Source: Burkholderiales bacterium RIFCSPHIGHO2_12_FULL_63_20 (GTDB lineage Bacteria; Pseudomonadota; Gammaproteobacteria; Burkholderiales; Burkholderiaceae_C). From it: DNA of 60,292 bases. Position numbers and translations under genes: made by a program. The notes beneath the pieces were generated by a model that did no database searches, was not told the origin of the DNA, and saw nothing but the letters and a program-made list of their open reading frames with translations. Where the stretch lies: assembly GCA_001770775.1 (NCBI GenBank), contig MESA01000031.1, positions 114,016 through 174,307 of the forward strand, in the 5' to 3' direction. Positions within the stretch are counted from its first letter, which is position 1. Every line of letters begins with the position of its first letter. This document shows positions 42,914-60,292 of this stretch, piece by piece.

Positions 42914-43146
42914 GAGTTTTCTAGCGCGTTGAATTTATTGATGTTTTTGTCTGAGTTTTGCTGATTTTTGCGTCTAGCTACCCACTTAGCTACCCAAATG
43001 GTCTGTGCTTGACGACGTGCTCATCTGCTCCCAACTGGTGGCTGCATTATCTCGTCGGGAAGCGCTGGTCATCTGGATGTCGACAGCGATTTCCCCTCGC
43101 GGTAGCCGCCTCGCCGCACACAGCGTGGCCGGCGACGCTGGGTGCC

Positions 43147-43189
43147 TTGCAAAGATCGCCATTTCCTCCTAAGATTGCATGAAATTTCA
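43147..43189 (+). promoter_or_regulatory. Candidate promoter and operator of the abiE locus
   Basis: TTGCAA (43147-43152), 17 nt, TAAGAT (43170-43175) is a plausible sigma-70 promoter. Just after it is the perfect palindrome TGAAATTTCA (43180-43189). AbiEi antitoxins autorepress by binding inverted repeats in their promoter, so the palindrome is a reasonable operator. The preceding ~230 bp after xth carry no gene that I can recognise. Confidence 0.45.
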
Positions 43190-43203
43190 ATGAGAAATCA
43201 ATC

Positions 43204-43815: not shown

Positions 43816-44476
43816 ATTTCTGCATCACCGCAAGGACTTCGGCGACCTGCTTGCCGTGGTCGCTGACGAACGAAGCCTTGATCCGACATTGGTCGGGAAG
43901 GACTACTGGATCATGCATTGCCTTTTGGGGCTGCGAACTTAGGGGTTCAACTTCGAACTCAAGGGCGGCACATCCTTGTCCAAGGGCTTCGGTGTCATCC
44001 ACCGATTCTCGGAGGACATCGACATCCGGATCGCGCCTCCCAAAGAGCTGGAGGTCAAGACCGGCCGCCATCACAACAAGGTCGCTCATGTCTCGTCCCG
44101 TCGGGCTTTCTATGACTGGCTGGCCACTAAAATCAGAATCCCGGGCATTTTTCAAGTCGCGCGTGATGAAGATTTCGACGACGAGAAGATGCGCAGCGGT
44201 GGCATTCGCCTGTCCTATGCAGCGCGCACGGCCCCATTGGCAGGTGTCAAAGACGGGATCTTGCTGGAGCTCGGCTTTGATGACACCGCACCCAACAGAC
44301 CGGTGACAATCTCGTCCTGGGCGTGGGATACAGCAAGCGCACGCGGCGTATTAGTGGCAGACAACCGAGCTGTTGACGTGCCGTGCTACGCGCCTACCCA
44401 CACCTTTGTCGAGAAGCTTCAGACGATTTCGACCAAGTACCGAAAGCTGGGAGAGGCACAGGGCTTCACAAACTGA
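43808..44476 (+). pseudogene. AbiEii nucleotidyltransferase toxin, disrupted
   Basis: Reading from GTG 43808 gives PEFLHHRKDFGDLL ... KDYWIMHCLLGLRT, then an in-frame TAG at 43940-43942 (codon 45), after which GFNFELKGGTSLSKGFGVIHRFSEDIDI continues in the same frame. GGTSLSKG and the SEDIDIRI acids are the nucleotidyltransferase active site, still intact. Intact AbiEii proteins have Gln near this point, so CAG to TAG is the likely change. Homology stops at about 44460, where an IS110-family remnant replaces the C-terminal part; the frame then ends in 4-5 foreign codons. Toxin almost certainly inactive. A restart after the stop (for example from 43976) is conceivable. Confidence 0.85.
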
Positions 44477-44702
44477 GGCGCCATGAGCCGCACGGTGTGC
44501 TCAAGCTCCTGCAGCTTGCGAGCCCAGTGGTGAGCGCTGCCGCAAGCCTCCATGCCGATCAGGCACGGCGTCATGTTCGCGAAGAAGGCGGCAACCTGGT
44601 CTCGCCTTAACTGCTTGCGCAACACCGCCTTGCCGCGCTCGTTCGCTCCGTGGACCTGGAATACGTTCTTGGCCAGGTCGATGCCAATTGTCGTGTCTGC
44701 AT
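44461..44702 (-). pseudogene. IS110-family transposase, N-terminal remnant
   Basis: On the minus strand the frame reads TIGIDLAKNVFQVHG, AVLRKQLRRDQVAAFF, CLIGMEACGSAHHWARKL and VRLMAPQFVKP, the DEDD-type N-terminal part of IS110 transposases. It is cut at FVKP by the junction with the abiEii toxin gene. The ATG at 44702-44700, which has AAGGAG upstream, is out of frame with this peptide, so a frameshift has also hit the start. The rest of the element is absent. Confidence 0.8.
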
Positions 44703-44726
44703 GGTGGACGCTCCTTCCGTTTCAAG

Positions 44727-44967
44727 TGGCCGACACGCGCCACTCTGCCGTCATCGGGTGGGGGCGTCCATCCCATTGCTTACGAAGGATCTCTGGCGTC
44801 AGGGGAAAAACTTGGCCATCTTCAAGCGCAATAAGCCACTCCCGGTCTTGGCGCGCAGTCCGTTTGCCGAAGGGATATGGGGGGCTGCGGGATGGTCGAC
44901 AGTCCCGGCGGGCGTTTGTGGGCGAGCCGGGCTGCTGCGTGAGCCTGTCGCGGAAAGTGGTGCCGTC
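44727..44967 (-). other. Degenerate stretch between IS110 remnant and TetR gene
   Basis: No gene can be called. Directly after the TetR stop the same frame stays open for about 80 codons to a TGA at 44727, ending with segments such as ARQDREWLIALEDGQVFPLT and MTAEWRVSAT that look coding, but no family is recognised and no start codon supports it. The part near 44750-44790 (GGGGGCGTCCATCCCATTG) resembles the outer end region of IS110-type elements. Confidence 0.3.
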
Positions 44968-45534
44968 TCAGACTGCCGTGCCGGCCGCAAACGAGTTGAT
45001 CAGTTGGCGTTGTGCATGCAAGTGGTCTCCAGCGCTGTTCACGCGGTCCAGCAACAAGGCGCCTTCCAGCCCGGACATCATCACGGCGGCCAACCGGCTT
45101 GGGGGCAGGGGGTTAAGCAGTTCGCCCTTATGTTGCTTCAGGATCTGGGCCAACCAAGCTTCTGCCTGTTTGAAGAAGCCGCTCAAGAGGCTGCGGCAGT
45201 GCTCGTCGAGTGAGGACAACTCGGCGGCCAACATGCCGCACAGGCACAGCTTGTCGTCCTGAGCAGCTTCTTCAAATAGGTCAATAAAGGCTGACAGCTT
45301 GCGTTTTAAGGCTGTAGGCTTGTTGGCAATGGCTGTCAAGCGCTGCGCGAAGGCCTCGCTGTAGCTGGTGATCAGCACGGCGGTGAGGTCGTGCTTTTCC
45401 GGAAAGTAGTAGTGCACGCTAGACGACTTGACGCCCGTCTGTTCGGCGAGTTGGCGAAAACTCAGTTCGCGCAAGCCCGATCGCTGGACGATGGCCTGCG
45501 CCAGGGTTTGCAGTTCGGTACGTTTGTTAGCCAT
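44968..45534 (-). CDS. TetR family transcriptional regulator
   Basis: Repressor-type regulator of 188 aa. The helix-turn-helix is GLRELSFRQLAEQTGVKSSSVHYYFPEKHDL (about 18-48). The ligand domain is helical with cysteines (DKLCLCGMLAAEL) typical of the AcrR/YcdC-type subfamily that senses small hydrophobic or electrophilic molecules. It is the last of four co-directional genes (AhpD-like, GST, cupin, TetR) and probably regulates them. Confidence 0.85.
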   Translation of the reverse strand: MANKRTELQTLAQAIVQRSGLRELSFRQLAEQTGVKSSSVHYYFPEKHDLTAVLITSYSEAFAQRLTAIANKPTALKRKLSAFIDLFEEAAQDDKLCLCGMLAAELSSLDEHCRSLLSGFFKQAEAWLAQILKQHKGELLNPLPPSRLAAVMMSGLEGALLLDRVNSAGDHLHAQRQLINSFAAGTAV

Positions 45535-45589
45535 GGTACCGTTGTCTCAACCGTACATATTTTTGCGATATCGCTTTGCCAAGTGCTAG

Positions 45590-46273
45590 TCAAGCCGAAG
45601 GTGGGACTTGCACCAAGCTCAGGTGGCGCGTTTTGACCCAGACGGTGGTGCCTTGCGCCCCAGCGATGGCGGTGAGTCGCCCCCCTCGAGGGACGCGCAA
45701 CCAAGACCAGGCTCGCAGTTCGTCTGCGCCCTCTGTGAAGCCGCCGGACAGCACCAGCAGTTCCGCGCCGTCAGGCATCACGGCGTCAAGCCGTGTGCCG
45801 GGTAGCCAGGTCTCCAGGCTCACAGTTTCGCGCTCGTCCTCGAACAAGGGCGTCACCGCCACGCCGGGGCGGGTGGCGTCGTCCACACGGCCGATCTTGT
45901 TGGTGTCGATCACCTCCGGGGTGCGGTCCGCCGGGTCGAACTGCCACAGCTTCACGAAGATCACGCAACCGGTCTCGGAGCCTGGCGTGTGTCGTGTGGT
46001 GGGCGGGTTGCGGATATAGCTGCCGGCAGGGTAGTCGCCGCGCTCGTCCTGGAAGACCCCGTCAAGCACCAGGAACTCTTCACCACCGTGGTGGGTGTGC
46101 GGGCTGAAATGGCTGCCGGGTGCGTAGCGCACGATGGAGGTTGCTCGGGCAACCTCACCGCCTATGCGGTCGAGCATTCTGCGCTGTACACCTGCCACAG
46201 GGGAGTCCACCCAGGGCAGGTCGGCACCATGCAGTAGCACCCGTTGGTCGAACTGGGCGTTGATGAGGTCCAT
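45590..46273 (-). CDS. Cupin (ChrR-type) protein
   Basis: Two cupin-like halves over 227 aa. The first has the metal motif PHTHHGGEEFLVLDGVF with HxH and the downstream His (TTRHTPGSE). The second (about 120-215) is degenerate with no complete metal set. It resembles the cupin domain of ChrR anti-sigma factors and of 'cupin, anti-ECF-sigma' proteins, without the zinc-binding N-terminal anti-sigma domain. In its operon with GST and an AhpD-like protein it may be a metal-dependent dioxygenase or an oxidative stress sensor. Confidence 0.75.
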   Translation of the reverse strand: MDLINAQFDQRVLLHGADLPWVDSPVAGVQRRMLDRIGGEVARATSIVRYAPGSHFSPHTHHGGEEFLVLDGVFQDERGDYPAGSYIRNPPTTRHTPGSETGCVIFVKLWQFDPADRTPEVIDTNKIGRVDDATRPGVAVTPLFEDERETVSLETWLPGTRLDAVMPDGAELLVLSGGFTEGADELRAWSWLRVPRGGRLTAIAGAQGTTVWVKTRHLSLVQVPPSA

Positions 46274-46321
46274 CGGTACTCCGTTTGGGTGGTCAGGTGA
46301 AGGCAGTTGAGACTGTTCGAA

Positions 46322-46939
46322 TCAGCCACCCATGCTGGGGCGCTGGGCCATACGAGCGCGCCACGCCTTCAGATGAGGCAAGTCCGCAGGCAACTCGATC
46401 TTGGCGAAGTCAGCAAAATTCAGGCCCACGAACAAAGTGATATCGGCGACTGAGAAGTGCTGGCCGGCTGCAAAGGGCTGCGTTGCCAGCACGCTGTCGA
46501 AATAGCGCATGCCGGCGATGGCACGCTCACGCTGCTTCAAACCCCATTCTTTGTTCTGGTACAGCTCCAGCGCACCAAGGCCGGGTGTGGCATGGTGGAA
46601 GTAGGTACCCACGGCGTCCATCACGCCCTGTTCGGCGCGGCACTGCATCATGTGGATCACCGCGCGGTCCTTGGCGGTCGTGCCAGTCAGCGAAATGCCG
46701 TCGAATGCATGGTCGATGTACTCAGTAATGGCCGTGCATTCGCTGATGGTGGTGCCGTCGCCCAATTCCAGCACAGGCACGGTAGCGTTGGGATTCATCG
46801 CCAAAAAGCCGGGCAGGCGGTGCTCGCCCTTCAAAACGTCGACATGCACAAATTGCATCTTGTCAGTGGCGCCTTTTTCGGCAAGGGCAATGCGCACACG
46901 GGCGGGGTTGGGAAAGCCTTCAAAGTCGTAGATTTTCAT
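46322..46939 (-). CDS. Glutathione S-transferase family protein
   Basis: Thioredoxin-fold N-terminal domain (MKIYDFEGFPNPARVRIALAEKG; NATVPVLELGDGTTISECTAI with the cis-Pro and Ser/Glu glutathione contacts) and helical C-terminal domain (SVADITLFVGLNFADF). 205 aa. N-terminal PNPARVR resembles the bacterial YfcG/GstA-like and dehalogenase-like classes. Gap to the cupin gene is 48 bp. Conjugation or reduction of electrophiles is likely; the substrate is not readable. Confidence 0.88.
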   Translation of the reverse strand: MKIYDFEGFPNPARVRIALAEKGATDKMQFVHVDVLKGEHRLPGFLAMNPNATVPVLELGDGTTISECTAITEYIDHAFDGISLTGTTAKDRAVIHMMQCRAEQGVMDAVGTYFHHATPGLGALELYQNKEWGLKQRERAIAGMRYFDSVLATQPFAAGQHFSVADITLFVGLNFADFAKIELPADLPHLKAWRARMAQRPSMGG

Positions 46940-46974
46940 GATTTATGGGTTCATGGGTTCATGGGTTTGTGAAT

Positions 46975-47226
46975 TCACGCAGGGTCGGTTATCAGATGCG
47001 TGCCATGGGTGAGAGCAGCGCCAGCACGTAGTGCTACGGCCACGAAGGTTGCCTGAGCCAGTTCTTGCTCGTTGGCACCAGCAGCAACTGCTGCCTTGCG
47101 ATGAACCTCCAGACAGTAGCCGCACTGCGTGGTAAGTGCCACAGCGATTGCGATCAACTCTTTGTGTTTCTTTGAGATGGCGCCCTCTGCCAGTGCTGCC
47201 TTGTCCATTTCTTGGAAGCCTTTCAT
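46975..47226 (-). CDS. AhpD-like / carboxymuconolactone decarboxylase family protein
   Basis: Small alkylhydroperoxidase-like protein with the redox CxxC and proton-relay His in TTQCGYCLEVHRKAAV, KELIAIAVAL before and ALRAGAALTHGTHLI after it. The annotated ATG 47226 gives 83 aa, but the frame continues upstream with family-like residues (RLFQPEEIPRLAAGAPAA) back to a TAG at about 47327 without a standard ATG, GTG or TTG, so the true start may be an unusual codon or the 5' end may have been damaged. First gene of the four-gene operon. Confidence 0.8.
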   Translation of the reverse strand: MKGFQEMDKAALAEGAISKKHKELIAIAVALTTQCGYCLEVHRKAAVAAGANEQELAQATFVAVALRAGAALTHGTHLITDPA

Positions 47227-47386
47227 GGCTGCTGGAGCGCCAGCAGCAAGGCGAGGTATTTCTTCAGGTTGGAAAAGTCGAATGGAGTGTCTTTTGTGTT
47301 GTGGACAGGTTGCTAAGTTTATCTATCTATCAGAAGGTAGGCAATCTCCTTATTCTTCTAGGGGAATTGGTCTTGGTGACTTACCA

Positions 47387-48688
47387 GGGCACTTCTTGAA
47401 ACCCACTGGCGCCGCGCTAGCTGACGCGGCAAGATGCTGATCATGGTCACACCGCGCATCAAGCCATCGGTCTTCTTTCAAGACCCGCCCGACACCGACT
47501 TGTTTGTGCAGGCACATCGGCAAGCCAAGTTGGGCAGCTACGTTGCCAACCTGGCGGCGATGGATGGACTGATCGACTTCAGTGCAGTGGCCCAATCGGT
47601 TGAGACGGCGTGCCCACGTGCAGAGCGCAGCAAGGGCGGTCGACCGCCCTACGCCAGCGAGGTCATGGTGCGAATGGAGTTCCTGCAGGCGCTGTACAAC
47701 CTCAGCGATGAGGAGTGCGAGCACCAGATGCTCGACCGCATGAGCTTTCAGCGGTTTTGCCGCGTCGACGGCCAGCTCCACATTCCCGATGCGCGCACGC
47801 TGTGGAGCTTCAAGCAACGCCTGGCCAAGGGCGGTCTGGGTGGACGGGTCATCTTCGCTGCGGTGAGCCAGCAGTTGCAGCAGCAGGACTACCTCCCGCG
47901 TGGCGGGCAGATTGTGGATGCCAGTATCGTGCAAGCGCCCATCACGCAGGCCCTCAGCGAAGAGCGCCAGGCGCTCAACGAAGGCCAGGCACCTGAGGGT
48001 TGGAGCACGAAGCGGTTGCAGCACACCGACCGAGATGCGCGCTGGACCAAGAAGCATGGCAAGAGCTTTTATGGCTACAAGGTGCACAGCAACGTGGACG
48101 CACGCTGGAAGCTGATTCGCCGCATCGTGGTGACGCCAGCCAATGTGGACGATGGTCAATCGCTGGGGGAGGTGCTAGACGCGGGCAACACCCGAGGACG
48201 CGTGTTGGCAGACCGGGGTTATGACGCGCAGGCCAACCGTGAATTGCTGGCCCGACACCAGTTGGGCGACGGTATCGCCCGGCGAGCCAAGCCAGGCCAG
48301 AAAGCCCGACAGCGGCTGGGCGCGCGCAACCGCAGCATCAACAAGACAAGGTCCCGCGTCGAACATGTGTTTGCCGGGCTGGAGCAGCTGGGTGGCAAAG
48401 TGGTTCGGGCCATGACGCTGGCCAGAAACGAGCTGGCGATCACGCTCAAGTGCGTGGCCTACAACGCCAAAACATTGGTGTGGTTGGTGGCGCAAGGCGC
48501 GCCGACATGAGGGGCAAGATGCGCGCGCATGGTGCCCAGGCGGGCGTTTTGCAGCGTGCCAGGGTCAGCCTGCGCTGCGGCGGGCGGCCAGAGCGGGTAC
48601 CGCAATGAGGCCGCCGGGCCGAACAATCTCAAGGCCTGGGGCGAATGGGCCTCCTGCGCTTTGGGAAATTGGGTTACGCGAAGTGCCC
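47387..48688 (+). mobile_element. IS5-like insertion sequence, complete (1302 bp)
   Basis: Imperfect terminal inverted repeats start GGGCACTTC (left, 47387) and end GAAGTGCCC (right, 48688), with a second matching block AACCCA/TGGGTT inside. The element is flanked by a 4-bp direct repeat ACCA (47383-47386 and 48689-48692), the expected target duplication. One intact transposase gene fills it. The element sits upstream of the AhpD-like operon and against an IS3 remnant. Confidence 0.88.
47434..48510 (+). CDS. IS5-family transposase
   Basis: DDE transposase of 358 aa. N-terminal DUF772-like part (MVRMEFLQALYNLSDEECEHQML), then the acidic residues in IVDASIV, VLADRGYDAQ and the C-terminal RSRVEHVFAGLEQLGG (E of the DDE set with the YREK-like region). 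No stop or frameshift, so the element may still be active. ATG at 47434 or 47443. Confidence 0.93.
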   Translation: MLIMVTPRIKPSVFFQDPPDTDLFVQAHRQAKLGSYVANLAAMDGLIDFSAVAQSVETACPRAERSKGGRPPYASEVMVRMEFLQALYNLSDEECEHQMLDRMSFQRFCRVDGQLHIPDARTLWSFKQRLAKGGLGGRVIFAAVSQQLQQQDYLPRGGQIVDASIVQAPITQALSEERQALNEGQAPEGWSTKRLQHTDRDARWTKKHGKSFYGYKVHSNVDARWKLIRRIVVTPANVDDGQSLGEVLDAGNTRGRVLADRGYDAQANRELLARHQLGDGIARRAKPGQKARQRLGARNRSINKTRSRVEHVFAGLEQLGGKVVRAMTLARNELAITLKCVAYNAKTLVWLVAQGAPT

Positions 48689-48692
48689 ACCA

Positions 48693-48770
48693 GTAACCTG
48701 CCGCAGCAGACTCTGTGACCTGCTTGACCGCTTCAAGATTGAATTTTGGGGTGTAACGTAGTTTGCTCAT
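48693..48770 (-). pseudogene. IS3-family OrfA, N-terminal stub
   Basis: MSKLRYTPKFNLEAVKQVTE is the typical start of IS3-group OrfA (helix-turn-helix protein). Homology stops at the edge of the IS5-like element; sequence on the other side of the element does not resume OrfA, so the gene was already truncated or was lost by a deletion. Its ribosome site (GGAGGTGTC) is kept. Confidence 0.75.
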
Positions 48771-49070
48771 GACACCTCCTATTGGCCTTCAATGTGAGAG
48801 TCATAGGTGTTAGCTGGGCAGGGGCGATCCAGTGAAATGGATCTGGGGCCTGTCCAGAAAGGCTCGTATGATCGGTTTGGTGAAGGCCTCGGGTACAGTT
48901 AGGTGAACGGGTTCTGGTGCAGGCTTGACTCAAGCAAGTTCTGAGGTCACCAGCCTGACCTGAAACGTTTTTGGGTAATGGGATGGGCCAATGGTTACGG
49001 CAACGCAAATTGCGACGGAGCGATATGAGCCCAAGTTCATTCATCATTCTTTAAGAAGGGTAAGTCGATA
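48771..49070. other. Non-coding 300 bp upstream of the BtrH-like gene
   Basis: No gene is recognised. The half next to the IS3 stub probably is that element's left-end leader. The half next to the BtrH-like gene should contain its promoter and ends with GAAGGG 9-10 nt before the GTG start. No convincing -35/-10 pair was found. Confidence 0.4.
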
Positions 49071-50066
49071 GTGACATTACACACAGCAGATATGGCACAG
49101 GCCCCCGACATTCCCCATCGGTCCGGCCGCCATTGCGGGAGTTCGGCCATCCGGGACTTGCTTGAGTTCCATGGCACGACGCTGACCGAGGCCATGTGTT
49201 TTGGGCTGGGCTCGGGGCTGGGCATCACATACCTGACGCTGCCTGATGCCCCGGTACCTTTTCTGGTCCATGTGCGCTCGCTGGGATATGAGGAGCGGGT
49301 ATTCCAGGCGCTGGACGTACCGTTCGCCTGGACAAGTTACAGCTCCGTCGAGGAGGGCGCGCAGGCGCTGGATGGCTTGCTCGACCAGGGGCGCCCAGCC
49401 CTGCTCCTGACCGATATTTTTCACTTGCCGTACTTTACCAGCCGGACGCATTTTCCCGGCCACGCCATCGTTGCCTGGCAGCGCCAACCGGCGGACGGCT
49501 GCATTCTGGTGACCGATACCGAGCGCCCCGCGCCCATCCCGGTGGCACGTTCCGATCTGGCCCGTGCCCGCTTCGCGGAACTGCCTCCTTTTTTTCATGC
49601 TGGCAACTTGTTCGCGCCTCCCGCCATTCATGCGCGGCTTTCGGTCGAGCGGGTGGCTGAAGCCATACGCCACAACGCACGTTTACTGCTGGAGGGCGGA
49701 CCTTATGCCGGCGTGGCCGCGCTCGATACCTGGCTGGCCGATCTTGGTCGCTGGGAACGCGAGGGCGACTGGCGCTGGACGACGCGTTTTGCTTATCAAA
49801 TCATCGAACGGCGCGGCACGGGCGGCGGCGGTTTTCGCAAAATGTACGCAGAATTTCTGAACGAAGCCGCATCGGCTGATCCACGCATCAGCGATCTGCA
49901 ACTGCCGCAGCTTATGACAGACTGTGCCGCATGCTGGACATCGCTGGCGCTGGCGCTGAAAGCAGGCTCCGAGAGTGAATGCTTCCCTACGAAATTGCTC
50001 GCAGATGCCCTGCAAGCCGTACGGGCGGCGGAGCGTCGCTATATCGACGCTGCTCTGATCTATTGA
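49071..50066 (+). CDS. BtrH N-terminal / DUF4872-like acyltransferase
   Basis: 331-aa cytoplasmic protein of the BtrH family, papain/C39-like acyltransferases; BtrH itself moves an acyl chain from an acyl carrier protein to an aminoglycoside. The N-terminal nucleophile region is RHCGSSAIRDLLEFHG (Cys then helix). GHAIVAW carries the expected histidine and LVTDTERP a following acid. The last 150 residues are the DUF4872-like helical part. GTG 49071 is taken; ATG 49092 is an alternative. Base and codon use (more A/T at third positions) differ from core genes, suggesting import. It forms a likely operon with two thioesterases. Confidence 0.75.
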   Translation: MTLHTADMAQAPDIPHRSGRHCGSSAIRDLLEFHGTTLTEAMCFGLGSGLGITYLTLPDAPVPFLVHVRSLGYEERVFQALDVPFAWTSYSSVEEGAQALDGLLDQGRPALLLTDIFHLPYFTSRTHFPGHAIVAWQRQPADGCILVTDTERPAPIPVARSDLARARFAELPPFFHAGNLFAPPAIHARLSVERVAEAIRHNARLLLEGGPYAGVAALDTWLADLGRWEREGDWRWTTRFAYQIIERRGTGGGGFRKMYAEFLNEAASADPRISDLQLPQLMTDCAACWTSLALALKAGSESECFPTKLLADALQAVRAAERRYIDAALIY

Positions 50067-50101
50067 GTGAACACATTTACAGTGCAAATTGAGGAGCAGG
50101 C

Positions 50102-50572
50102 ATGTCGCATATGAAGCCGCAACTGGACCAAGCTGCCATGGCAAAAGCTTTTTTCGGCAGTCAGCATCCACTGTTCAACGCCCTCGGCGTCGACGTGGTG
50201 GCGGTGGCCGACGCCAAGGCGGAGATGGTGATGCCGTTTTCTGAGGCTCTGGCCGACGGCCTTGGAGCGTTGCATCGGGGCACACTCGTGACCCTGCTTG
50301 ACACGACGTGTGGACTGGCGATTTTCTCCGCGCTACGCTCGCTCAGGCCTATCGCCACCATTGACCTGCGCGTCGATTACCTTCGTGCCATTCCGGCGGG
50401 CAGCGGCCTGCGCGCGGTGGTCGAATGCATCGGCTGGACAGACAGCGTGGCCTTTGTCTCCGGCCGGGCTTATGCGGCGGGTGACGAGATGCCGCTTGCC
50501 ACGGTGACGGGATCCTTTGCCATCGATACGTTAGGACCGGCTTTCGATACGACGGACAGGAGTGCGGCATGA
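50102..50572 (+). CDS. PaaI-type hotdog thioesterase 1
   Basis: Hotdog-fold acyl-CoA/ACP thioesterase, 156 aa. Residues LFNALGVDVVAV, LGALHRGTLVTLLDTTCGLAIF (PaaI helix with the HxG-like turn and catalytic Asp) and RPIATIDLRVDYLRAI are diagnostic. GGAG 8 nt before the ATG supports the start. It ends in an ATGA overlap with a second hotdog protein, and follows the BtrH-like gene by 35 bp. Confidence 0.85.
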   Translation: MSHMKPQLDQAAMAKAFFGSQHPLFNALGVDVVAVADAKAEMVMPFSEALADGLGALHRGTLVTLLDTTCGLAIFSALRSLRPIATIDLRVDYLRAIPAGSGLRAVVECIGWTDSVAFVSGRAYAAGDEMPLATVTGSFAIDTLGPAFDTTDRSAA

Positions 50573-51015
50573 CGAGGGTGGTTAAATCAATGACAGATTG
50601 TGCAGAGGCAGCAATGGTCCTCGTGCCGGCGGTGCCCTTCCATCGGTTTCTGGGTATGCGGGAGGAGGTCGTTGAGGGCGAGACACGCTACCTCATGGAC
50701 TTTTGCGAAAATCATGTCGGCAATCCCCTGATCCGGACCTTCCATGGTGGTGTACTTGCCAGCTTTGGAGAAGTGGTCGCGGCTACCCATCTTGCACGAT
50801 CCCTGGCGCGGGTCGAGTTACCTGCTTGCTCGACGCTTACCTTCGATTACTTGCGACCGGCTTTCGCCGGCACGATTTGCGCGGTGCCCCACATTGTGCG
50901 GGCGGGACGACGTATCACAACGGTCTCGGTGCAGTTGCGCCTGGACAATAAGCTGGCGTGCATTGGGCGCTTCCTGTTTCCCGTGGGGACTGCAGACTTG
51001 GGAGGCAGCGCGTGA
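50569..51015 (+). CDS. PaaI-type hotdog thioesterase 2
   Basis: Second hotdog protein, 148 aa, sharing the pattern (FHRFLGMREEVVEGE; NPLIRTFHGGVLASFGEVVAATHL; CSTLTFDYLRPA). It has the HGG turn, and Glu/Asp of the helix is replaced by GE, so catalysis may differ. Start overlaps the previous stop by 4 bp, so the two subunits are probably made at similar rates and may form a hetero-oligomer. Gene 3 of the BtrH module; no further intact gene follows on this strand. Confidence 0.83.
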   Translation: MTRVVKSMTDCAEAAMVLVPAVPFHRFLGMREEVVEGETRYLMDFCENHVGNPLIRTFHGGVLASFGEVVAATHLARSLARVELPACSTLTFDYLRPAFAGTICAVPHIVRAGRRITTVSVQLRLDNKLACIGRFLFPVGTADLGGSA

Positions 51016-51045
51016 CCCACGGTCGAGACATGACTGGTTTACGAA

Positions 51046-51349
51046 TCAAAACTGACGCTTGAATCGCCACACGCCCAACCCGAAGATCGCCATGCCAAGC
51101 AGCAGCGCCAAACCCACAGGATGTCCCATCCCGCGCCCTGAAGCAGGATGCCGTAGCCCATCTCGACGAAGTAATAAAGTGGAGAGATAGACATGGCTTC
51201 GCGCAGCCCGATGGCATGGCTTCGGGTGGGGATCAGGTACCGGAAGGGAAGGTCATCGGCACCAGCACGAGGATGGCGAGCAGCGCAGCCTGGGCGAGAT
51301 TGGGTGCGATGGTGGCGATGTAGAGACCCAGTTCGCGGCGGTGGATGTG
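51046..51349 (-). pseudogene. ABC-2 type transporter permease, 3' remnant with stop and frameshifts
   Basis: On the minus strand three frames together give the C-terminal end of an ABC-2 permease: RRELGLYIATIAPNLAQ and LVLVPMTFPSGT, then TGA in place of the usual Trp, SPPEAMP, a frameshift to LREAMSISPLYYFVEMGYGI, a second frameshift after DILW, and GLALLLGMAIFGLGVWRF ending at 51046. The N-terminal two thirds are missing and the piece abuts an alkB fragment. It could be the vestige of an export system belonging to the BtrH module. Confidence 0.75.
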
Positions 51350-51594
51350 TAGAGCGCTGTGCTGCCCGACCCGATGGCCACGTCCTACCGGGACCCGAAG
51401 AAGCCCCTGTGGCTGCTGCCAGCCCTGATCCCCGCCATCGTGGCCACGGGCCCGGTGGCCCAGCTGATGGGCCAGGACCACGCCGCCTGGTACGTCCTGC
51501 CCTTTTTGGTGCTGTTCGTGCTGGTGCCCATCCTGGAATGGCTGATCGGCGACGACACCAGCAACCCGCCCGAGGCCGCCGTGCCCGACCTCGA
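51350..51594 (+). pseudogene. alkB 5' fragment (about 245 bp)
   Basis: Nearly identical (about ten differences) to the first 245 bp of the intact alkB at 54574. Products align from LPDP.ATSYRDPKKPLWLLP through LIGDDTSNPPEAAVPDLE. The start codon is TAG instead of ATG and the homology stops abruptly at PDLE, where dnaE sequence begins in the opposite direction. Non-functional. It implies a second alkB copy once existed or a partial duplication. Confidence 0.9.
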
Positions 51595-51595
51595 A

Positions 51596-51686
51596 CCTTG
51601 GCTGCAAGCTTGACCAGGTCGTCTATGCGGACGGTGCCGTCGACGACGGAGAACTCGGTGTGGGCGCGGAGGTGAACAAAAGGCAT
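51596..51686 (-). pseudogene. dnaE 5' fragment (30 codons)
   Basis: The minus strand from ATG 51686 reads MPFVHLRAHTEFSVVDG followed by TVRIDDLVKLAAK, the start of the DNA polymerase III alpha subunit PHP domain, and then runs into the alkB fragment. dnaE is essential, so a whole copy must exist elsewhere or this is an assembly join. Confidence 0.8.
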
Positions 51687-51862
51687 GGGGCGATTGTAAG
51701 AAGCCGGCGCCCCTCGCCTGCACCCAATTCCCCGGGCAGTTTTTTCAGATTCGCAGGTTTGAATGCGCTGGATGTATCAATTTGCGACCGAATCTCCGAA
51801 CGATGTCTTCAGTTCTCTGGTTCTGCGCCGGCAACAACGACGAATGCTGAAAGGAGCTCGAC

Positions 51863-53407
51863 ATGTCATTTTTCGGTGCGCGCGGGCTTGCCGCCCGCAT
51901 CGCCCTGGCTTCGGTGCTGGTTTGCGCCGGCCTGATCGGGGCCGCCCTGTTCACGGTCTGGCGGCTGCAGGACGTCTCCACCGTCAGCGATCAAACGGCC
52001 AAGCACCGCATCCCGCAACTCTCGGAGATCGCCCAGGTCGAGCTCAACGTCACCCGCGCCTCGCTGCAACTGCGCCACGCCATGCTGGCGCGCACGCCCG
52101 CTGAACGCGACGCGGCCTTGCAGGACGTGCAAACCAAACGCCAGCTGATCGAGCAGCTGCTCAAGACCTATGAGCAGCAACTGTTCACCAGCGCCGGCAA
52201 GGAACGCTTTGAGGCCATCCCGCCAGCGGTGCAGGCTTTCTGGGTCCAAGGGGAGGCCAACGTCAAGCTCATCGCCGAGGGCCGCAAGGACGAGGCCTTT
52301 GCTTACCTGGTCGACCACACCATCCCGGCTCGCAACGCGCTGCTCAAAGAACTGGCGGAGACCGTGAGCTACCAGCGCGACAGCGCCGAGCGCGACATCG
52401 CGCACATCCAATCGAGCATCCAGCAGACCTTGATGGTGCTGTTGGGCGTGTTCCTGTTCATCGGCGGCGCCATGGTGACGCTGTCCTGGTGGATCGGGCG
52501 CACCCTGAAGATGCGGGTGGATCGCTCACGGGAGGTGGCCGAGCGCGTGCGCGATGGCAACCTCAGCACCACCATCCACGAAGATCAGCGCGACGAGTTC
52601 ACGCCCCTGCTGGCGGCGCTTTCCGACATGCAGGCCAGCTTGACCCAGGTGGTCACGCGGGTGCGCGGCAACGCCGAAGCCGTGGCCACGGCCAGCGCCC
52701 AGATTTCGCAAGGCAGCCAGGACCTGTCGCAACGCACCGAGCAACAAGCCGGCTCGCTGCAGCAAACCGCCTCCACCATGTCGGACCTGGGGCACACGGT
52801 GCAGCGCAACGCAGAGAACGCATTGCAGGCCACCGCCATGGCCCAGGCGGCCGCTCAGGTCGCCGAACAGGGCGGTGGGGTCGTGCGCGAGGTGGTCGAG
52901 ACCATGCAGGGCATCAACGAGGCCTCGCGCAAGATCTCCGACATCATCTCGGTGATCGACGGCATCGCCTTCCAGACCAACATCCTGGCCCTGAACGCGG
53001 CGGTGGAAGCGGCCCGCGCAGGTGAGCAAGGCCGAGGCTTCGCCGTGGTGGCGGCCGAGGTGCGCTCGCTGGCGCAGCGCAGCGCTGGCGCCGCCCGCGA
53101 GATCAAGCACCTCATCACGGCCAGCGCCGAGCGCGTCGAGCGAGGCAGCACGCTGGTGAACCAGGCCGGTGACACCATGGTCCAGATCGTGGATGCCATC
53201 GGGCGGGTCAACACCATCGTGGCCGAGATCAGCACGGCCAGCGCCGAGCAGCAAGCCGGGGAGTCGGTGGTCGGCCAGGCCATCCAGCAAATGGACCACG
53301 GCACGCAGCAGAACGCGGCCCTGGTTGAAGAGTCGGCCTCGGCCTCCGAGAGCCTGCAGCACCAGGCTGCCGAGCTCGTTCAGTCGGTGGCGGTGTTCAA
53401 GGTCTGA
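51863..53407 (+). CDS. Methyl-accepting chemotaxis protein
   Basis: Inner-membrane chemoreceptor, 514 aa. TM1 ([18 protein letters not shown]), a periplasmic four-helix-bundle sensor (about 35-190), TM2 ([22 protein letters not shown]), HAMP, then the signalling domain with [20 protein letters not shown] and [16 protein letters not shown]. It lacks the long pentapeptide tail for CheR/CheB. AAAGGAG precedes the ATG by 6 nt. The sensor is not typed. Its position beside the hydroxylase genes makes an alkane-related attractant possible, though unproven. Confidence 0.93.
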
Positions 53408-54471
53408 GCACCCGCTGATCGCCGGAAGTCGCTCGGCGGCATGCCCACCCAGCGCCGGAAGGTGCGGCTGAAATTGGACGTGTCCTGATAGCCCAGCCGG
53501 TCGGCGATGGCTTCGACGCTCATGTCCGAGTGCAGCAGCCACCAGCAGGCCAGGTCTTCGCGCACGCGGTCGAGCAGCTGCTGGTAGGTCAGGCCCTCGT
53601 CGCCCAGTTTGCGGATCAGGGTGCGGCTGGAGACGTGCTCGCGCTCGGCCAACTCGCTCAGGGTCGGGTAGCCGCCCTCGCAGGCCAGCAAGAGCCTCAA
53701 GATGCGGTCGCCCACGGGCCCCAGGCGGTCACGCGGGTCGTTCTGCTGTGACCACAGGCGCTCGCACTCGCGCAAGGCCATGCGGTGGGTCTGCGGGTCA
53801 GGGGCCAGGCCCGGGTGGCTCAGGAGCGACAGCGGCAACACCATGGCCGAGCGCTCCATGCCAAAGCGCACCGAAGGCCACCAGCGGCGGTAGGCATCGG
53901 CCCACGGCGGCTCCGGGAAGGCGAACTCCACACGGGCCACGCGGGTCATGTCCAGCCCCGTGAGCGTGTCGAGCAGGCGCAGGCCCGCGCCCATCAGGTG
54001 GCCCATGATGTACTCGCGCACATCCGGGGCCTGCAGGTGCTCGCGCATCCACAGGGTGACCTCGTCGCCCTGCTGGTCGACCTCCAGCGAGATCAGGCTC
54101 TGACGCAAGCCGGCGTGGCGCTGGATCAGGGCCAGCGCCTGCCCCACGTTGTCGCACGACATGGCCGCCACCCCCACCGGCCCGTGCGCCGACAGCTGCG
54201 TGCCCCAGCCCACGGTGATGCCCAGCCAGGGCTCCTGCGTGAGCGCCACCGCGCGCCGGATCAGCCGGGTCACCTCGTCGAAGCTCAGGTAGCGGTTGCC
54301 CTCGTGCAGTGACGCCCAGTTCAGCCGCGTGCCGGACAGGATCTGCGCCTCGTCGAAGCCACGGCGGCGCATCTCGGCGCAGATCAGCCGGGCGTAGATG
54401 GGGTGCAGCGCGGGCGCCAGCCAGTCGGCCGCCTGCGTGGGAGGGGTTCGGGTGCTCACGGTGAGTGTCAC
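53380..54471 (-). CDS. AraC family regulator divergent from alkB (AlkR-like)
   Basis: 363 aa. An N-terminal ligand-sensing domain of the arabinose-binding-like type (about 20-220) precedes a C-terminal double helix-turn-helix ([40 protein letters not shown]). Such regulators control alkB in several hydrocarbon degraders. The divergent layout with alkB fits that role. Start is GTG (54471). Its stop overlaps the last 28 bp of the MCP gene on the opposite strand. Confidence 0.85.
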
Positions 54472-54490
54472 AAAATGACGATAAGTTGCC

Positions 54491-54522
54491 AGCGCAGACG
54501 GTACCCCATTTCGGCCTGCGCT
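54491..54522. promoter_or_regulatory. Inverted repeat in the araC-alkB divergent region
   Basis: AGCGCAG (54491-54497) and CTGCGCT (54516-54522) are perfect inverted 7-mers 18 bp apart, lying 50-80 bp before the alkB start. They are a candidate binding site for the divergent regulator. A Shine-Dalgarno AGGAG (54561-54565) is further down, 8 nt before the alkB ATG. Confidence 0.4.
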
Positions 54523-54573
54523 CGCAAGATCGCATCACTCCATTTCACCGACTCACACCGAGGAGACAACAAC

Positions 54574-55761
54574 ATGAGCGCCGTGCTGCCCGACCCGCTG
54601 GCCGCGTCCTACCGGGACCCGAAGAAGCCCCTCTGGCTGCTGCCAGCCCTGATCCCCGCCATCGTGGCCACGGGCCCGGTGGCCCACCTGATGGGCCAGG
54701 ACCACGCCGCCTGGTACGTCCTGCCCTTTTTGGTGCTGTTCGTGCTGGTGCCCATCCTGGACTGGCTGATCGGCGACGACACCAGCAACCCGCCTGAAGC
54801 CGCCGTGCCCGACCTCGAGCGCCGCGCCTTCTACCGCTGGATGATCTACCTGGCCATCCCCGTGGGCTGGGCCACCACGCTGTTCAACGTGTGGTTCCTG
54901 AGCACGCACGCGGTGCCCTGGTATGGCGTGGTCACCACCGTCATCATCAACGGCTTCATGCTGGGCCTGGTGATGAACATGAGCCACGAGCTGGGCCACA
55001 AGAAGGAATGGCTGCCCCGCAAGGCCGCGCTGTTCAACCTCTCGCTGGGCGCCTACACGCACTTTTGCATCGAGCACAACCGCGGCCACCACCGCCACGT
55101 GGCCACGCCGGAAGACCCGGCTTCGTCCAAGATGGGCGAGACGATCTACCGCTTCATGTTCCGCGAGATGCCCGGCGCCTACTTCCGCGGCTGGGACCTG
55201 GAGGTCGAGCGCCTGGAGCGCCAGGGCAAGTCGGCCTGGAGCCTGGACAACGAGATCGTGCAGGGCTGGATCGGCACCGCCATCGTCTGGGGCGGCATGA
55301 CCGCCTGGCTGGGCACGCAGGCCCTGGTGCTGCTGATGGTGCTGGCCTTCCTGGGCGCCTTCATGCTGACCTCGGCCAACTACATCGAGCACTACGGCCT
55401 GCTGCGCCAGAAGAAGCCCGATGGCCGCTACGAACACTGCCAGCCGCACCACTCGTGGAACAGCAACCACGTGCTGTCCAACATCCTGACCTTCCAGCTG
55501 CAGCGCCACTCCGACCACCACGCCAACCCGACGCGCAGCTACCAGTCGCTGCGCAGCTTCCACGACATTCCGACCTTCCTGCCGCTGGGCTACACGGGCA
55601 TGTTCCTGGTCGCTTACGTGCCGCCGCTGTGGTTTGCCGTGATGGACAAGCGAGTGGTTAAAGCCACCGGTGGCGATGCCTCGCGCATCAACTTTTTGCC
55701 GGCGCAACGCAAGCGCTTGGTCCAGACCTATGAGATGCAGGACACGGCCTCAGCGGCCTGA
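54574..55761 (+). CDS. alkB: Alkane 1-monooxygenase AlkB
   Basis: Membrane diiron hydroxylase converting n-alkanes to 1-alkanols, 395 aa. ATG 54574 has AGGAG 8 nt upstream. Six hydrophobic helices. Histidine motifs are complete: HELGHK (138-143), EHNRGHHRHVATPEDPAS (167-184) and LQRHSDHHANPTRSYQ (309-324), plus NYIEHYGL (269-276). It lacks a fused rubredoxin, so rubredoxin and its reductase must be encoded elsewhere. Regulation is probably by the divergent AraC protein. A 96%-identical 5' fragment lies 3.2 kb upstream. Confidence 0.96.
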   Translation: MSAVLPDPLAASYRDPKKPLWLLPALIPAIVATGPVAHLMGQDHAAWYVLPFLVLFVLVPILDWLIGDDTSNPPEAAVPDLERRAFYRWMIYLAIPVGWATTLFNVWFLSTHAVPWYGVVTTVIINGFMLGLVMNMSHELGHKKEWLPRKAALFNLSLGAYTHFCIEHNRGHHRHVATPEDPASSKMGETIYRFMFREMPGAYFRGWDLEVERLERQGKSAWSLDNEIVQGWIGTAIVWGGMTAWLGTQALVLLMVLAFLGAFMLTSANYIEHYGLLRQKKPDGRYEHCQPHHSWNSNHVLSNILTFQLQRHSDHHANPTRSYQSLRSFHDIPTFLPLGYTGMFLVAYVPPLWFAVMDKRVVKATGGDASRINFLPAQRKRLVQTYEMQDTASAA

Positions 55762-56232
55762 AATATAAGCTCCCAACACTGATCGCGAGTGGCTGAGAAG
55801 GTCTGTCGCCTTCAGGATCGAGAACGTGCGCACCACCGTCTCCTCGGTTAGCACGCCCGTGTCATCCATCAGAAGGCATGGCGCCGCCTGGAATAGCGGC
55901 TCCACCATCAGGCGAAGGGGCAGGCGCGCGCGACGAGCCGCGCTGAGCCCGTCGGCAACGTCCGCGGCGTCGGGCCGAACATGTCGGCATGCTGCCATGC
56001 TCGCCTTGCGGGCGAATAGCGGAGCCAGCGACCTCTCTACCTCTGCCCACGGCACACGTAGTACCAGCATTGCCAGCGGGTCGCGCAAGCCGATCATGGC
56101 ATCCACCGGGGAAAAACCCAGAGTTTTGGCCATCCCTGTTGCCAGGCTCTGCCCATATTCACGGGCGTGGCGGTGAATTTGCAAGACCGACACAGGGCGA
56201 CGCTGAGCATGCGCCTGGAGGATTTTGCCCAA
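55750..56232 (-). pseudogene. IS5-family transposase remnant
   Basis: The minus-strand frame (160 codons) contains VDAMIGLRDPLAMLV, VPWAEVERSLAPLFARK and RLPLRLMV, typical of the N-terminal dimer region of IS5-group transposases. After RLPLRLMV the sequence is unrelated to any transposase, and the DDE domain is missing. It overlaps the alkB stop by 12 bp on the opposite strand. Probably an old insertion scar between the two hydroxylase units. Confidence 0.6.
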
Positions 56233-56514
56233 GCCCTACACGATCGCACACGAGGTCGGCCACCGATGTGCAAAACCTCGAAGGTACCTCTTTCAAGCTG
56301 GTACCCGATGCACGGGTGCGTCTGTCAGGCGCAATGGAAAGCCATGAGCGTACGCCTTGAGCGGCAGGGCGGTTACTATGCTGGCACCGGGCGGCGCACG
56401 AAACGCAGCAATTCAAGCAGGGGATGGAAAACAGCGACTTGAAGAAGCCATGAATGCAGGTCTAGCATCAATCACAGGTCTGCCACCGTAGCCCTATTTT
56501 TACAACGCCATGGC
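56233..56514. other. Gene-free interval between IS remnant and XylM-like gene
   Basis: No coding frame with family resemblance was seen in either direction. It may hold the remaining end of the transposase remnant. No clear intrinsic terminator for the hydroxylase operon was found. Confidence 0.4.
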
Positions 56515-57678
56515 TCAAGCAGAAGCCTTGAGCCCCCAGCCAGCCCGCTTGTTGGCGGCCTCAGACAGCTTCAACTCTTCGGGGCTGGCGTACTTCAGAT
56601 CCCACTCCTTGACCTTGGGGTCCATCAGTTTGAACCACAGAGGCGGAACCATGGCCACCAGGATGGTGGTCAGGTAGCCACCGATCATCATGGGCGCTTC
56701 AGGGAAGGGCTTGAGGTCTTGATAAGGCACTTCGCCTTGGGCATGGTGATGCGAGTGGCGGGTCAGGTTGAACATCGACCATGAACTGATGCGCTTGTTG
56801 GTGTTCCAAGAGTGACGAGGCTGAACCGGGAGCTTGGGGTCGCGAACCATGCCGTAGTGTTCCATGTAGTTAACGATCTCCAGCAGCGATTTGCCCCACA
56901 GCGCACTGGCAATGAAGAAGCCAGCCACAGGCCAGCCGCCCATGGCATATGCCACCGCTACCAACAGCAAACTCATCAGGTGACCACGGATCACGCCGTT
57001 ACGCAAGGAGATGGCGCCGTGGCCATCGCGCTTGAGGCGCTTTTTCTCGATGTTCCACGCGCTGATGTTGCCCTTGATGGTCGAGGCCAGGACGTGGAAG
57101 TACACATTGCGGCCGCGAGGTGCGGTGGCTGGGTCTTCAGTGGTGGACACATAACGGTGATGGCCGTAGACGTGCTCGATCGAGAAAATGGTGTCAAAGC
57201 TGAAAGCCAACAACCAGCGACCGACAAACATCGAGATCGGATCCCAGGTGCGGTGAGTCAGTTCGTGGGCGGTGATGGTGCCAACCATGCCGATCATCAG
57301 GCCGGAGAGCAGGATGGTCGAGATGTGGTGGCCCCAGAAGGTGCTTTCGCGGGCTGCCAGGGCATCGAAGCCCGTGAGCTGCTGCACCCAGGCGCCATAG
57401 CCCAGCACGTCGCCGGAGCTCACACTCCAAAGCGATGCGAAGATGATCATTAACAGCAAGGGCAAAGCCATCCACAGCTGCGCAGTCAAGATGCCGGGAT
57501 ACTTGAAGGTGGGTGTGGTGGTGTCGTCGCCACAGACAGCGTCGCCCACCATGTAGAAAACCAAGATGGTGATCAGACCGTAGGTGGTGTAAGCGCCACC
57601 TAGGGTGACCATCGTCAGAGCCAGCAGGCCGATGATATGGAATAGGAAATACTTGAGGTAGTGCAGAATGTTCATCAT
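56515..57678 (-). CDS. Membrane diiron hydroxylase, XylM/CymAa-like
   Basis: Hydroxylase subunit of a two-component monooxygenase attacking methyl or alkyl carbons, 387 aa. ATG 57678 begins MMNILHYLKYF and overlaps the reductase stop (ATGATGA). Histidine boxes: HELTHR (138-143), EHVYGHHRYVSTTEDPA (168-184), YMEHYG (271-276) and LTRHSHHHA (305-313). TTEDPATAPRGRNVY and pairing with a dedicated reductase separate it from AlkB proper and match XylM (xylene) and CymAa (p-cymene)-type enzymes. The substrate is not determined by sequence; aromatic methyl groups, terpenes or alkanes are candidates. Confidence 0.85.
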   Translation of the reverse strand: MMNILHYLKYFLFHIIGLLALTMVTLGGAYTTYGLITILVFYMVGDAVCGDDTTTPTFKYPGILTAQLWMALPLLLMIIFASLWSVSSGDVLGYGAWVQQLTGFDALAARESTFWGHHISTILLSGLMIGMVGTITAHELTHRTWDPISMFVGRWLLAFSFDTIFSIEHVYGHHRYVSTTEDPATAPRGRNVYFHVLASTIKGNISAWNIEKKRLKRDGHGAISLRNGVIRGHLMSLLLVAVAYAMGGWPVAGFFIASALWGKSLLEIVNYMEHYGMVRDPKLPVQPRHSWNTNKRISSWSMFNLTRHSHHHAQGEVPYQDLKPFPEAPMMIGGYLTTILVAMVPPLWFKLMDPKVKEWDLKYASPEELKLSEAANKRAGWGLKASA

Positions 57679-58709
57679 CACTGTGCTCCTGTAGAGTCGT
57701 GCAAGGTCGTGAAACGGTCGGCGCGGATTTGTTCTTTGGCGATGCCGCGGTCGCGCAATACTGCGCTGACGGCATCGACCATGACGGGTGGGCCGCACAG
57801 GTAGGCATGGGCACCGTAGGGCAGGTGCTCGGCCAGGGCGCTGTCAACGTTGCCGAGCGCACCTGCCCAACTGCTGCCATCGGGTTCGGCCGACAGCACG
57901 GGCACAAAGCGGAAGGCCGCAGGCCATTGGGTGCGAAGGGCTTCCAGCGTGTCTTGAGCGTACAAGTCAGCTTGCTGGCGGGCACCAAACAAGATGGTGA
58001 CGGGGCGTTTGACGCCTTGGGCCAGAGCGTCTTCCAAGATGGCCAGAACGGGGGCCAGGCCGCTGCCGCCGGCCACCATCAGTAAGGGGGCGTCAGAGGG
58101 GCGCAGCCAGAAATCGCCCATGGGGCCCTTCACGCTGGCGCGCTGTCCAACCAGATCATGTTTATGCACATGGCTGGAGAACACGCCATTGGGCACCTTG
58201 CGTACCAGGAAACTGACCTGGGAATTGGGCTGCGAGGCGGTGGCAAACGAGTAGCTGCGATCAACCCCGGGCAGGCTGTCAACCGACAATTGTGCGTACT
58301 GGCCAGCTTTGTAAGGCAGCGAGTCGTCCAGTTGGATGCGCAGGCTGACGATGTCGTGGGTGAGTGCGGTGCAGGCCACCACCCGGCCACTTACGGTGCG
58401 GCGGGCTTGCTGGGCGGCCATGTCTACTTCGATGGTGACATTGGTTTGTGGCACCGACTGGCAGGCCAGGATCATGCCGGCGTCCAAATCTTCGTCCGAC
58501 AAGATGTAGGCGGTCTGAGTCAGCTCCTTGACCTTGCCGTCGACCAGCTTGCATTTACAGGCTGCGCAGCCACCCACGCGGCAGCTGTTCGGGAAATCAA
58601 TGCCTTCGCGCAACGCTGCCTGGAGCAAGGTCTCCTTGGGATTGACCATGATGGGCACCCCATTGATGCTGGCCTGGTTGGGGCCGGACTTCTTGAAAAA
58701 CGAAAACAT
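57678..58709 (-). CDS. Ferredoxin-NAD(P)H reductase component, XylA-like
   Basis: Electron-transfer partner of the hydroxylase, 343 aa. A plant-type [2Fe-2S] domain has C43, C48, C51 and C83 (CRVGGCAACKC ... LACQS). An FAD domain has RSYSFATAS and GVFSSHVH, and the NAD domain has VAGGSGLAPVLAIL and AYLCGPPVMVDA. It passes electrons from NAD(P)H to the diiron site, so no rubredoxin is needed. First gene of a two-gene operon; its stop overlaps the hydroxylase start. The 127-bp gap to the divergent AraC gene holds the promoters. Confidence 0.93.
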   Translation of the reverse strand: MFSFFKKSGPNQASINGVPIMVNPKETLLQAALREGIDFPNSCRVGGCAACKCKLVDGKVKELTQTAYILSDEDLDAGMILACQSVPQTNVTIEVDMAAQQARRTVSGRVVACTALTHDIVSLRIQLDDSLPYKAGQYAQLSVDSLPGVDRSYSFATASQPNSQVSFLVRKVPNGVFSSHVHKHDLVGQRASVKGPMGDFWLRPSDAPLLMVAGGSGLAPVLAILEDALAQGVKRPVTILFGARQQADLYAQDTLEALRTQWPAAFRFVPVLSAEPDGSSWAGALGNVDSALAEHLPYGAHAYLCGPPVMVDAVSAVLRDRGIAKEQIRADRFTTLHDSTGAQ

Positions 58710-58783
58710 TGGCGTACTGTTAGTTTGATGGCGCTAAGTATTTGTATCCTATGAATCCTGGGGTAGATCAAGGGTAGGTTGTC

Positions 58784-58812
58784 TTGACACAAAAAGGTCA
58801 TTTATTGACAAT
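58784..58812 (+). promoter_or_regulatory. Candidate promoter of the second AraC gene
   Basis: TTGACA (58784-58789), 17 nt, GACAAT (58807-58812), 24 nt before the GTG. The -35 is perfect and the -10 has four of six matches. TGGCGCT occurs twice in the same divergent region (58729 and 58813), a possible direct repeat for AraC binding. Confidence 0.5.
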
Positions 58813-58836
58813 TGGCGCTTTTCAAAAAATCAAACC

Positions 58837-59847
58837 GTGCACAACGCAGCACTGCCCCTCCACTACGTGCGCCTTATCGCCGACATGCTGTCTGGCATGG
58901 GGGTGAATGTGCCCGAGGTGCTTGCGGCAGCCGATCTGCAAATGGCGGACTTGGCCGACGGCCACCGGGGCTTGGGCTTCGTGCCCTTTCTGAAGTTGAT
59001 GCATGCGGCCTTGGGCGCCGCAAAGGAGCCCGCTCTTGGCCTGCTCGTGGGGGAGCGCCTGCGCATCAACACTCACGGCAGGCTGGGTTACGCGGCCTTG
59101 AGCAGCAGCACCTTGCGTCAGGTTGTGTCGCTGCTGGAGAGCTTCTTGCCGCTGCGTACCACACTGGTGACGGTCACGCAGCGGGTTCAGGGTGACGAGG
59201 TATGGGTGGGCTTTCCTGTGGCCCGCCCACTCGACGGGCTGGATCTCGTGGTCAGCGAAGCCATCTTGTTGACCATCAAGAACCTGATTGACCAGATCAC
59301 CTTGGGCACTTGTCAGGTGCGACGTGTGTGCTTCAAACAGGTCGAGCCTGCGTATGAAGATCTGGCCCGGGACATGTTTGGTTGCGAGGTGCGTTACAGC
59401 CAAGACTGGTGCGGTCTGGTGTTGCCGGATGCAGCCATGGACTTGCCGCTGAGCTCGGCTGACCCGGCCAGCTTCGATGATGCTGCACGCCTGTGCCGTG
59501 AAGAGTTGGACAAGCGCGATGTGAACGCGGCCTTGAGCATCCAGGTGCGCCGTAACCTGCTGACGCGCCAACATGGCTTTCCTTCCCTTCAGGTGGTGGC
59601 CCGCCAGTTCCATCTCACCCCGCGCACCCTACACCGCCGCCTGGTGGCTGAAGGCACATCCTTTCAGCAGATCTTGGATGAGGTGCGCGAGCATCTGGCT
59701 ATGCAATACCTGCAAGCAGGCAAGCTGAGCGTGCAGGAGATCGCTTACACGCTGGGCTACAACGATCCGGCCAATTTCCGGCGGGCCTTCAAACGCTGGA
59801 CGGGCCGAGCGCCGTCGACCCTATTGATCCGGCCCTGTAAAAATTGA
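58837..59847 (+). CDS. AraC family regulator of the XylM-like operon
   Basis: 336 aa from a GTG start. N-terminal arabinose-binding-like sensing domain (MGVNVPEVLAAADL ... LGLLVGERLRINTHGRLGYA) and C-terminal helix-turn-helix pair (LQVVARQFHLTPRTLHRRL; SVQEIAYTLGYNDPANFRRAF). Divergent from the reductase-hydroxylase operon, which it most likely activates. It is only distantly similar to the alkB-linked AraC protein, so the two hydroxylase units probably respond to different inducers. Confidence 0.88.
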   Translation: MHNAALPLHYVRLIADMLSGMGVNVPEVLAAADLQMADLADGHRGLGFVPFLKLMHAALGAAKEPALGLLVGERLRINTHGRLGYAALSSSTLRQVVSLLESFLPLRTTLVTVTQRVQGDEVWVGFPVARPLDGLDLVVSEAILLTIKNLIDQITLGTCQVRRVCFKQVEPAYEDLARDMFGCEVRYSQDWCGLVLPDAAMDLPLSSADPASFDDAARLCREELDKRDVNAALSIQVRRNLLTRQHGFPSLQVVARQFHLTPRTLHRRLVAEGTSFQQILDEVREHLAMQYLQAGKLSVQEIAYTLGYNDPANFRRAFKRWTGRAPSTLLIRPCKN

Positions 59848-60025
59848 GTTTCTTGCCACGTCTCCACAGGGGGCCGTGTTTCGACTCCAACGTTCCGGAT
59901 CACTAGAGTCTCTGCGAACATCACGCTAGGCTCGCTGACTACTTGAGAGCCCTATTCCATGATCACTGACTCTATTTCGTTGAATCACCTGCTGGTCTGA
60001 GTATGCCGAGCAGAGCCGGGCCAGG

Positions 60026-60234: not shown

Positions 60235-60292
60235 ATGAGTGCTGACCATGATTGGGTGTGCTGACATGACCGCAATGGCGGCTGAGCGCACC

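Follow-up and report, generated by a model that had tools for sequence, protein, structure and literature searches.

How did pieces of three unrelated, truncated genes come to lie head to tail in one short stretch of a bacterial chromosome? The case is from Burkholderiales bacterium RIFCSPHIGHO2_12_FULL_63_20 (contig MESA01000031.1, positions 114,016 to 174,307), and the whole stretch of 60,292 nucleotides that was analysed is referred to here as the window. The original prediction, made from the sequence alone, described three truncated genes fused within about 640 bp, and alignment confirmed all three fragments. The scar occupies 51049-51686 and consists of the degraded tail of an ABC-2 permease gene, 243 bp from the 5' end of alkB, and the first 30 codons of dnaE. 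Its features are as follows.

51049..51331, minus strand: degraded C-terminal end of an ABC-2 permease, spread over three frames and interrupted by one stop (tblastn with the intact G019 permease)
51352..51594, plus strand: left direct repeat (L), a truncated alkB that runs from the last base of the ATG through codon 81 and two bases into codon 82
51595..51596, no strand: illegitimate alkB/dnaE junction, placed by comparing the native alkB and dnaE sequences of relatives at the join
51596..51686, minus strand: first 30 codons of dnaE, a passenger; codons read from the ATG at 51686 back to 51597, homology stops at 51596; MPFVHLRAHTEFSVVDGTVRIDDLVKLAAK

The permease tail aligns by tblastn to residues 291-388 of an intact 389-aa permease from the relative G019, which matches Pfam ABC2_membrane_3 and, weakly and below the cut-off, NCBIfam RbbA. 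The first base of the alkB fragment is the start codon's G, and its own ATG is therefore absent. The join between alkB and dnaE is abrupt, as had been predicted: the single base 51595 matches neither side, and inspection by eye showed no microhomology of at least 2 bp. The scar most likely has no function and is the footprint of a rearrangement.

The alkB fragment is one member of a pair of direct repeats. It is identical to 54576-54818 at 235/243 positions (96.7%), in the same direction and 3,224 bp away. The predicted match of about 96% to an intact alkB 3.2 kb downstream thus stands, while the fragment itself is 243 bp long without the ATG, not 245 bp. The features between and beyond the repeats are listed below.

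51863..53407, plus strand: methyl-accepting chemotaxis protein (MCP) within the insert (Pfam MCPsignal, 4HB_MCP_1)
53380..54471, minus strand: AraC-type regulator within the insert (Pfam Arabinose_bd, HTH_18)
54576..54818, plus strand: right direct repeat (R), the start of the intact alkB, forming the 243-bp pair with L
54574..55761, plus strand: intact alkB-like alkane hydroxylase of 395 aa (Pfam FA_desaturase; genus relatives)
51595..54818, no strand: 3,224-bp segment absent from G001 and G063, comprising the junction base, the dnaE fragment, MCP, AraC and one repeat

The alkB label of the 395-aa protein comes from sequence reading; no NCBIfam family matched it. L and R differ at eight sites in eight codons (51358, 51374, 51380, 51409, 51463, 51538, 51571 and 51574), with four synonymous and four nonsynonymous differences. 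The order of truncated copy, junction, insert and complete copy in direct orientation is the footprint of an insertion-duplication. Loss of a second alkB locus, which the original prediction had considered, is not needed, since the fragment pairs, as the left-hand repeat, with the intact alkB. Several genes around the repeats are worth recording. Upstream, a BtrH/DarH-related acyltransferase-like protein (49071-50066) is followed by two hotdog thioesterases (50102-51015), which are unusual neighbours for alkB. Region 56515-59847, 3' of alkB, encodes a second FA_desaturase-type hydroxylase (minus strand), a ferredoxin/NAD reductase (minus strand) and a further AraC regulator (plus strand). The reductase resembles BenC/MmoC-type electron transfer components with scores below their cut-offs, and we take the arrangement to be reminiscent of xylM/xylA-like hydroxylase pairs. 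At the MCP/AraC boundary (53308-53458), a small patch resembling gene conversion, with 10 SNPs in 151 bp, is present in G027 only.

The same junction occurs well beyond the window's genome. Window 51046-51720 is present at 675/675 identity in 8 of the 42 Aquabacterium genomes, namely the window's own genome (G000), G004, G011, G016, G026, G027, G029 and G064. The genome set has one genome per species, and the eight carriers are therefore eight Aquabacterium species. Such identity in eight genomes of one genus excludes chance, and the three-gene join is real, a recombination scar and no assembly error. The junction was found in all seven additional sequences tested (G004, G011, G016, G026, G027, G029 and L102). 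Two further genomes, G001 and G063, contain the first 549 of the 675 bases at 99-100%. In a draw at family level, 4/399 genomes matched at E <= 1e-60, all four within Aquabacterium, and a scan of the viral_contigs set for the junction gave no match. Our literature search found no paper joining Aquabacterium, alkB and a genomic island. The genome of Aquabacterium sp. NJ1 has reportedly been published.

The scar is carried by a genomic island, of which the window holds the left part.

42890..60292, no strand: genomic island, left part; the contig ends at 60292, and the island begins on the left near the 5' end of an xth-like gene (so labelled from a plasmid match and sequence reading)

Left of about 42.9 kb, the chromosome is 68-92% identical to G001, G004, G011, G016 and G027. 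From about 42.9-43.0 kb onward, the left end of the island matches the window exactly in five of the other seven carriers; the versions in G004 and G029 stay divergent until about 44.3 kb. Right of the edge, many copies match the window exactly, and most 500-bp bins contain no SNPs. Among the window, G001 and G016, the island is SNP-free over about 14 kb (shorter in other copies), next to neighbouring chromosome of 68-92% identity. This difference between a SNP-free island and a diverged chromosome indicates a very recent spread across species, as judged from the sequences compared. In the pair G016/G001 the island measures about 180 kb, with some unshared stretches, and a 426-codon tyrosine-integrase frame lies just inside the far end of the shared sequence (G016:C1:1375222, G001:C4:167283). 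The G029 island is located in another context, with no left-flank match in the 60 kb taken and an integrase frame some 1.6 kb beyond the edge of the shared sequence. Tests for an ICE asked for an integrase near an end, which is present, and for the VirB4-type transfer ATPase families PF03135 and TIGR03744 inside the island; in the four and five genomes searched, respectively, these matched other contigs only, and we therefore name the element a genomic island and not an ICE. A repeated att site at the xth start was sought with an exact 27-mer and 18-mer, which occur once in each of the five stretches containing them, without a second copy. Of the plasmid records, 38 match, and none covers at least 80% of the island part in one place; among the 20 matches listed of these 38, 18 fall on the chemoreceptor gene, one on xth and one near 44.5 kb.

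The left end of the island (42890-44300) is mosaic, with the G004/G063 and G029 versions diverged by at least 7%, and includes an AbiEii-type nucleotidyltransferase gene (43976-44476). In G004 and G063, 43626-43990 has a second copy, 89% identical and in the same direction, where the window from about 60025 onward matches. An IS5-family transposase lies within the island at 47434-48510.

Where did the inserted segment come from? A dnaE start is found within about 3.2 kb of an alkB match on the same contig in 14 of the 42 genus genomes, a count in which several alkB matches are weak and seven are supported by protein search. This recurrence makes alkB beside dnaE a native arrangement, and the dnaE fragment is then a passenger. 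G034 (A. parvum B6) is colinear with 51596-55742 at 90.6% over 4,158 columns, through the dnaE start, MCP, AraC and alkB. G023 aligns to 51969-55749 at 78.5%, and the native loci of G017 and G001 leave the chemoreceptor stretch unmatched. In the alignment proposed at the outset, the stretch upstream of the dnaE fragment, 51687-51862, is also colinear with the sequence beside the A. parvum B6 dnaE start, and the match is weakest there (78.5% in the bin 51751-51950). The idea of a rearrangement that used dnaE and alkB ends was right. Compared with G034, the dnaE fragment has 5 differences in 115 bp (95.7%). The whole dnaE that was expected elsewhere in the window's genome is present on G000:C33, in an open frame of 1,195 codons from stop to stop; it was rejected as the source of the fragment, at 82% over 116 bp versus 95.7% over 115 bp for G034.

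G001 and G063 carry the island without the segment (2/42 genomes). In both, 51594 runs directly into 54819, so that one repeat is kept and 3,224 bp are missing. At the eight sites that distinguish L from R, the single repeat reads LLLLLLRR in G001 and LLLLLRRR in G063, with no other difference. The switches fall in tracts that are identical between the repeats, 32 bp in G001 and 74 bp in G063. One repeat with left then right alleles and a single switch, the pattern of a loop-out, was thus found in 2/2 empty islands, and such a pattern reads as the signature of one crossover within the repeats. The alkB frame is open in both, without an ATG and preceded by TAG. Codon 63 of alkB is Asp in 32 of the 34 distinct matches covering it, and Glu is found only in the L fragment and in the G001 alkB. 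This fits a 5' end of the G001 alkB taken from the decayed truncated copy.

We consider it likely that a 3.2-kb insertion-duplication on a mobile island has the scar as its left boundary and was later looped out in the two empty islands. Observed parts of this explanation are the anatomy, its unchanged recurrence in eight genomes, the arrangement of the native source, and the two empty islands with a chimeric alkB. A native Aquabacterium segment with the dnaE start, chemoreceptor, AraC regulator and alkB start would have been added to the island before alkB. One end would have been formed by homologous recombination inside alkB, and the other by an illegitimate join of alkB codon 82 to dnaE codon 30/31. 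Three routes of entry, each leaving the same anatomy, may account for this: a single crossover with circularised DNA, the homology-facilitated insertion of linear DNA, or a tandem duplication. Later, the 243-bp repeats would have recombined and the segment looped out, probably twice, at two different crossover points. Each loop-out would strip alkB of its promoter and start codon and take away the chemoreceptor and the AraC regulator as well.

The strongest competing account, which we think possible but somewhat unlikely, takes the empty islands as ancestral. A G001-like island would have acquired the 3.2-kb segment a single time, through a Campbell-type crossover in alkB, and recombination would then have carried it into the second haplotype. 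If a circular donor recombined once with the alkB of such an island, exactly the observed L and R would result, and the 3.3% divergence between them then requires no time on the island. Against this account, it needs a separate transfer into the second haplotype (haplotype B), and a codon 63 mutation in a resident alkB already without its ATG and native promoter. The two haplotypes are seen in the flanks of the segment. G001 differs from five carriers at 0/6852 positions on the left and at 0/4243 to 0/5245 on the right, the lower totals being due to contigs that stop early. For G063, the differences from carrier G004 are 2/6848 on the left and 5/5243 on the right, and those from the window 24/6850 and 12/5244. 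Therefore, full and empty forms are present in both island haplotypes. On the right side, carriers G026 and G027 are intermediate between the two haplotype groups, and a single gain without transfer does not fit. Between 50211 and 55837, outside the repeats, no SNP common to G004 and G063 sets the haplotypes apart, so a transfer of the segment between haplotypes would leave no visible mark. Pairwise SNPs, taken among island copies whose haplotypes recombine, tend to favour deleted forms nested among full ones.

The alleles at the eight L/R sites do not decide for or against ancestral empty islands. Among four native alkB genes, both alleles are present at 4/8 sites, which fits two alkB sources joined by recombination. 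These four sites are all transitions, and so parallel mutation is possible, as is a tandem duplication followed by divergence. The affinity of L, R and the alleles of the empty islands to the four native genes is a tie. A breakpoint in donor affinity at the repeat end was also tried as a test of direction. Identity rises from 92.2% in the repeat to 95.2% after it for G034 and from 93.4% to 95.1% for G017, with equal variation elsewhere, giving no decision between the readings. The confinement of Glu at codon 63 to the L copy and G001 speaks for loss of the segment; for the empty islands, loss over never-gained is favoured, not proven. Two losses by recombination between the repeats would explain both the full and empty forms in the two haplotypes and the differing switch points.

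It is improbable that the empty islands reflect an assembly collapse of the 243-bp repeats and that all islands carry the segment. Both empty islands are MAGs by record title, the repeats share identical 74-bp and 32-bp tracts at the switch points, and the insert could sit on a small unbinned contig. However, after a collapse the insert would be expected somewhere else among the contigs of the bin, and no near-identical copy was found in either (best 86% in G001 and 73% in G063). In addition, the 32-bp tract seems short for a mis-join, and the MAG contigs apparently paired with G004, G027, G029 and G064 retained the insert. That the repeat pair acts as a recurrent excision switch, in which removal of the chemoreceptor and AraC regulator rewires alkB from a regulated promoter of its own to read-through from the upstream thioesterase genes and the toggle is selected in hydrocarbon habitats, is a conjecture to which we give very little weight. 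Finally, a mis-assembly of the window's genome, whether a false join or a chimera of contig ends, once proposed as the main alternative, is as good as dismissed by the same junction in eight genomes, among them three carrier records without a MAG title (A. soli SJQ9, A. commune DSM 11901 and Aquabacterium sp. CECT 9606, by inferred pairing), and nothing was found to support it, the contig ending only at window 60292.

The identical illegitimate junction in eight species is a marker of the recent spread of one hydrocarbon-related island in Aquabacterium. The repeat pair, seen in islands with and without the segment, offers a small natural experiment on the frequency with which 243-bp repeats of 3% divergence resolve. 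The recombination chemistry of the scar is already known. PMC3240628 describes how linear DNA, once circularised, integrates by a single (Campbell-type) crossover. As in that system, a homologous crossover in one gene and an end-to-end illegitimate ligation give a truncated copy, an insert and a complete copy; unlike it, the present case is natural, lies on a genomic island, is common to eight species and is known from sequence. Homology-facilitated illegitimate recombination has been proposed for T6SS effector/immunity arrays in PMC5361080. That arrangement likewise has homology at one end, an illegitimate join at the other and remnants of displaced genes, whereas the present one has a duplicated recipient stretch and, as its remnant, a 5' fragment of alkB. 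For loop-out, PMC9946442 describes RecA-dependent duplication and resolution between direct repeats of a 208.6-kb region in Burkholderia thailandensis. The common feature is the return of direct repeats within a genome to a single copy through homologous recombination, as proposed for the present case, but the repeats here are 243 bp of alkB with 3.3% divergence and not IS elements, and the role of RecA is putative.
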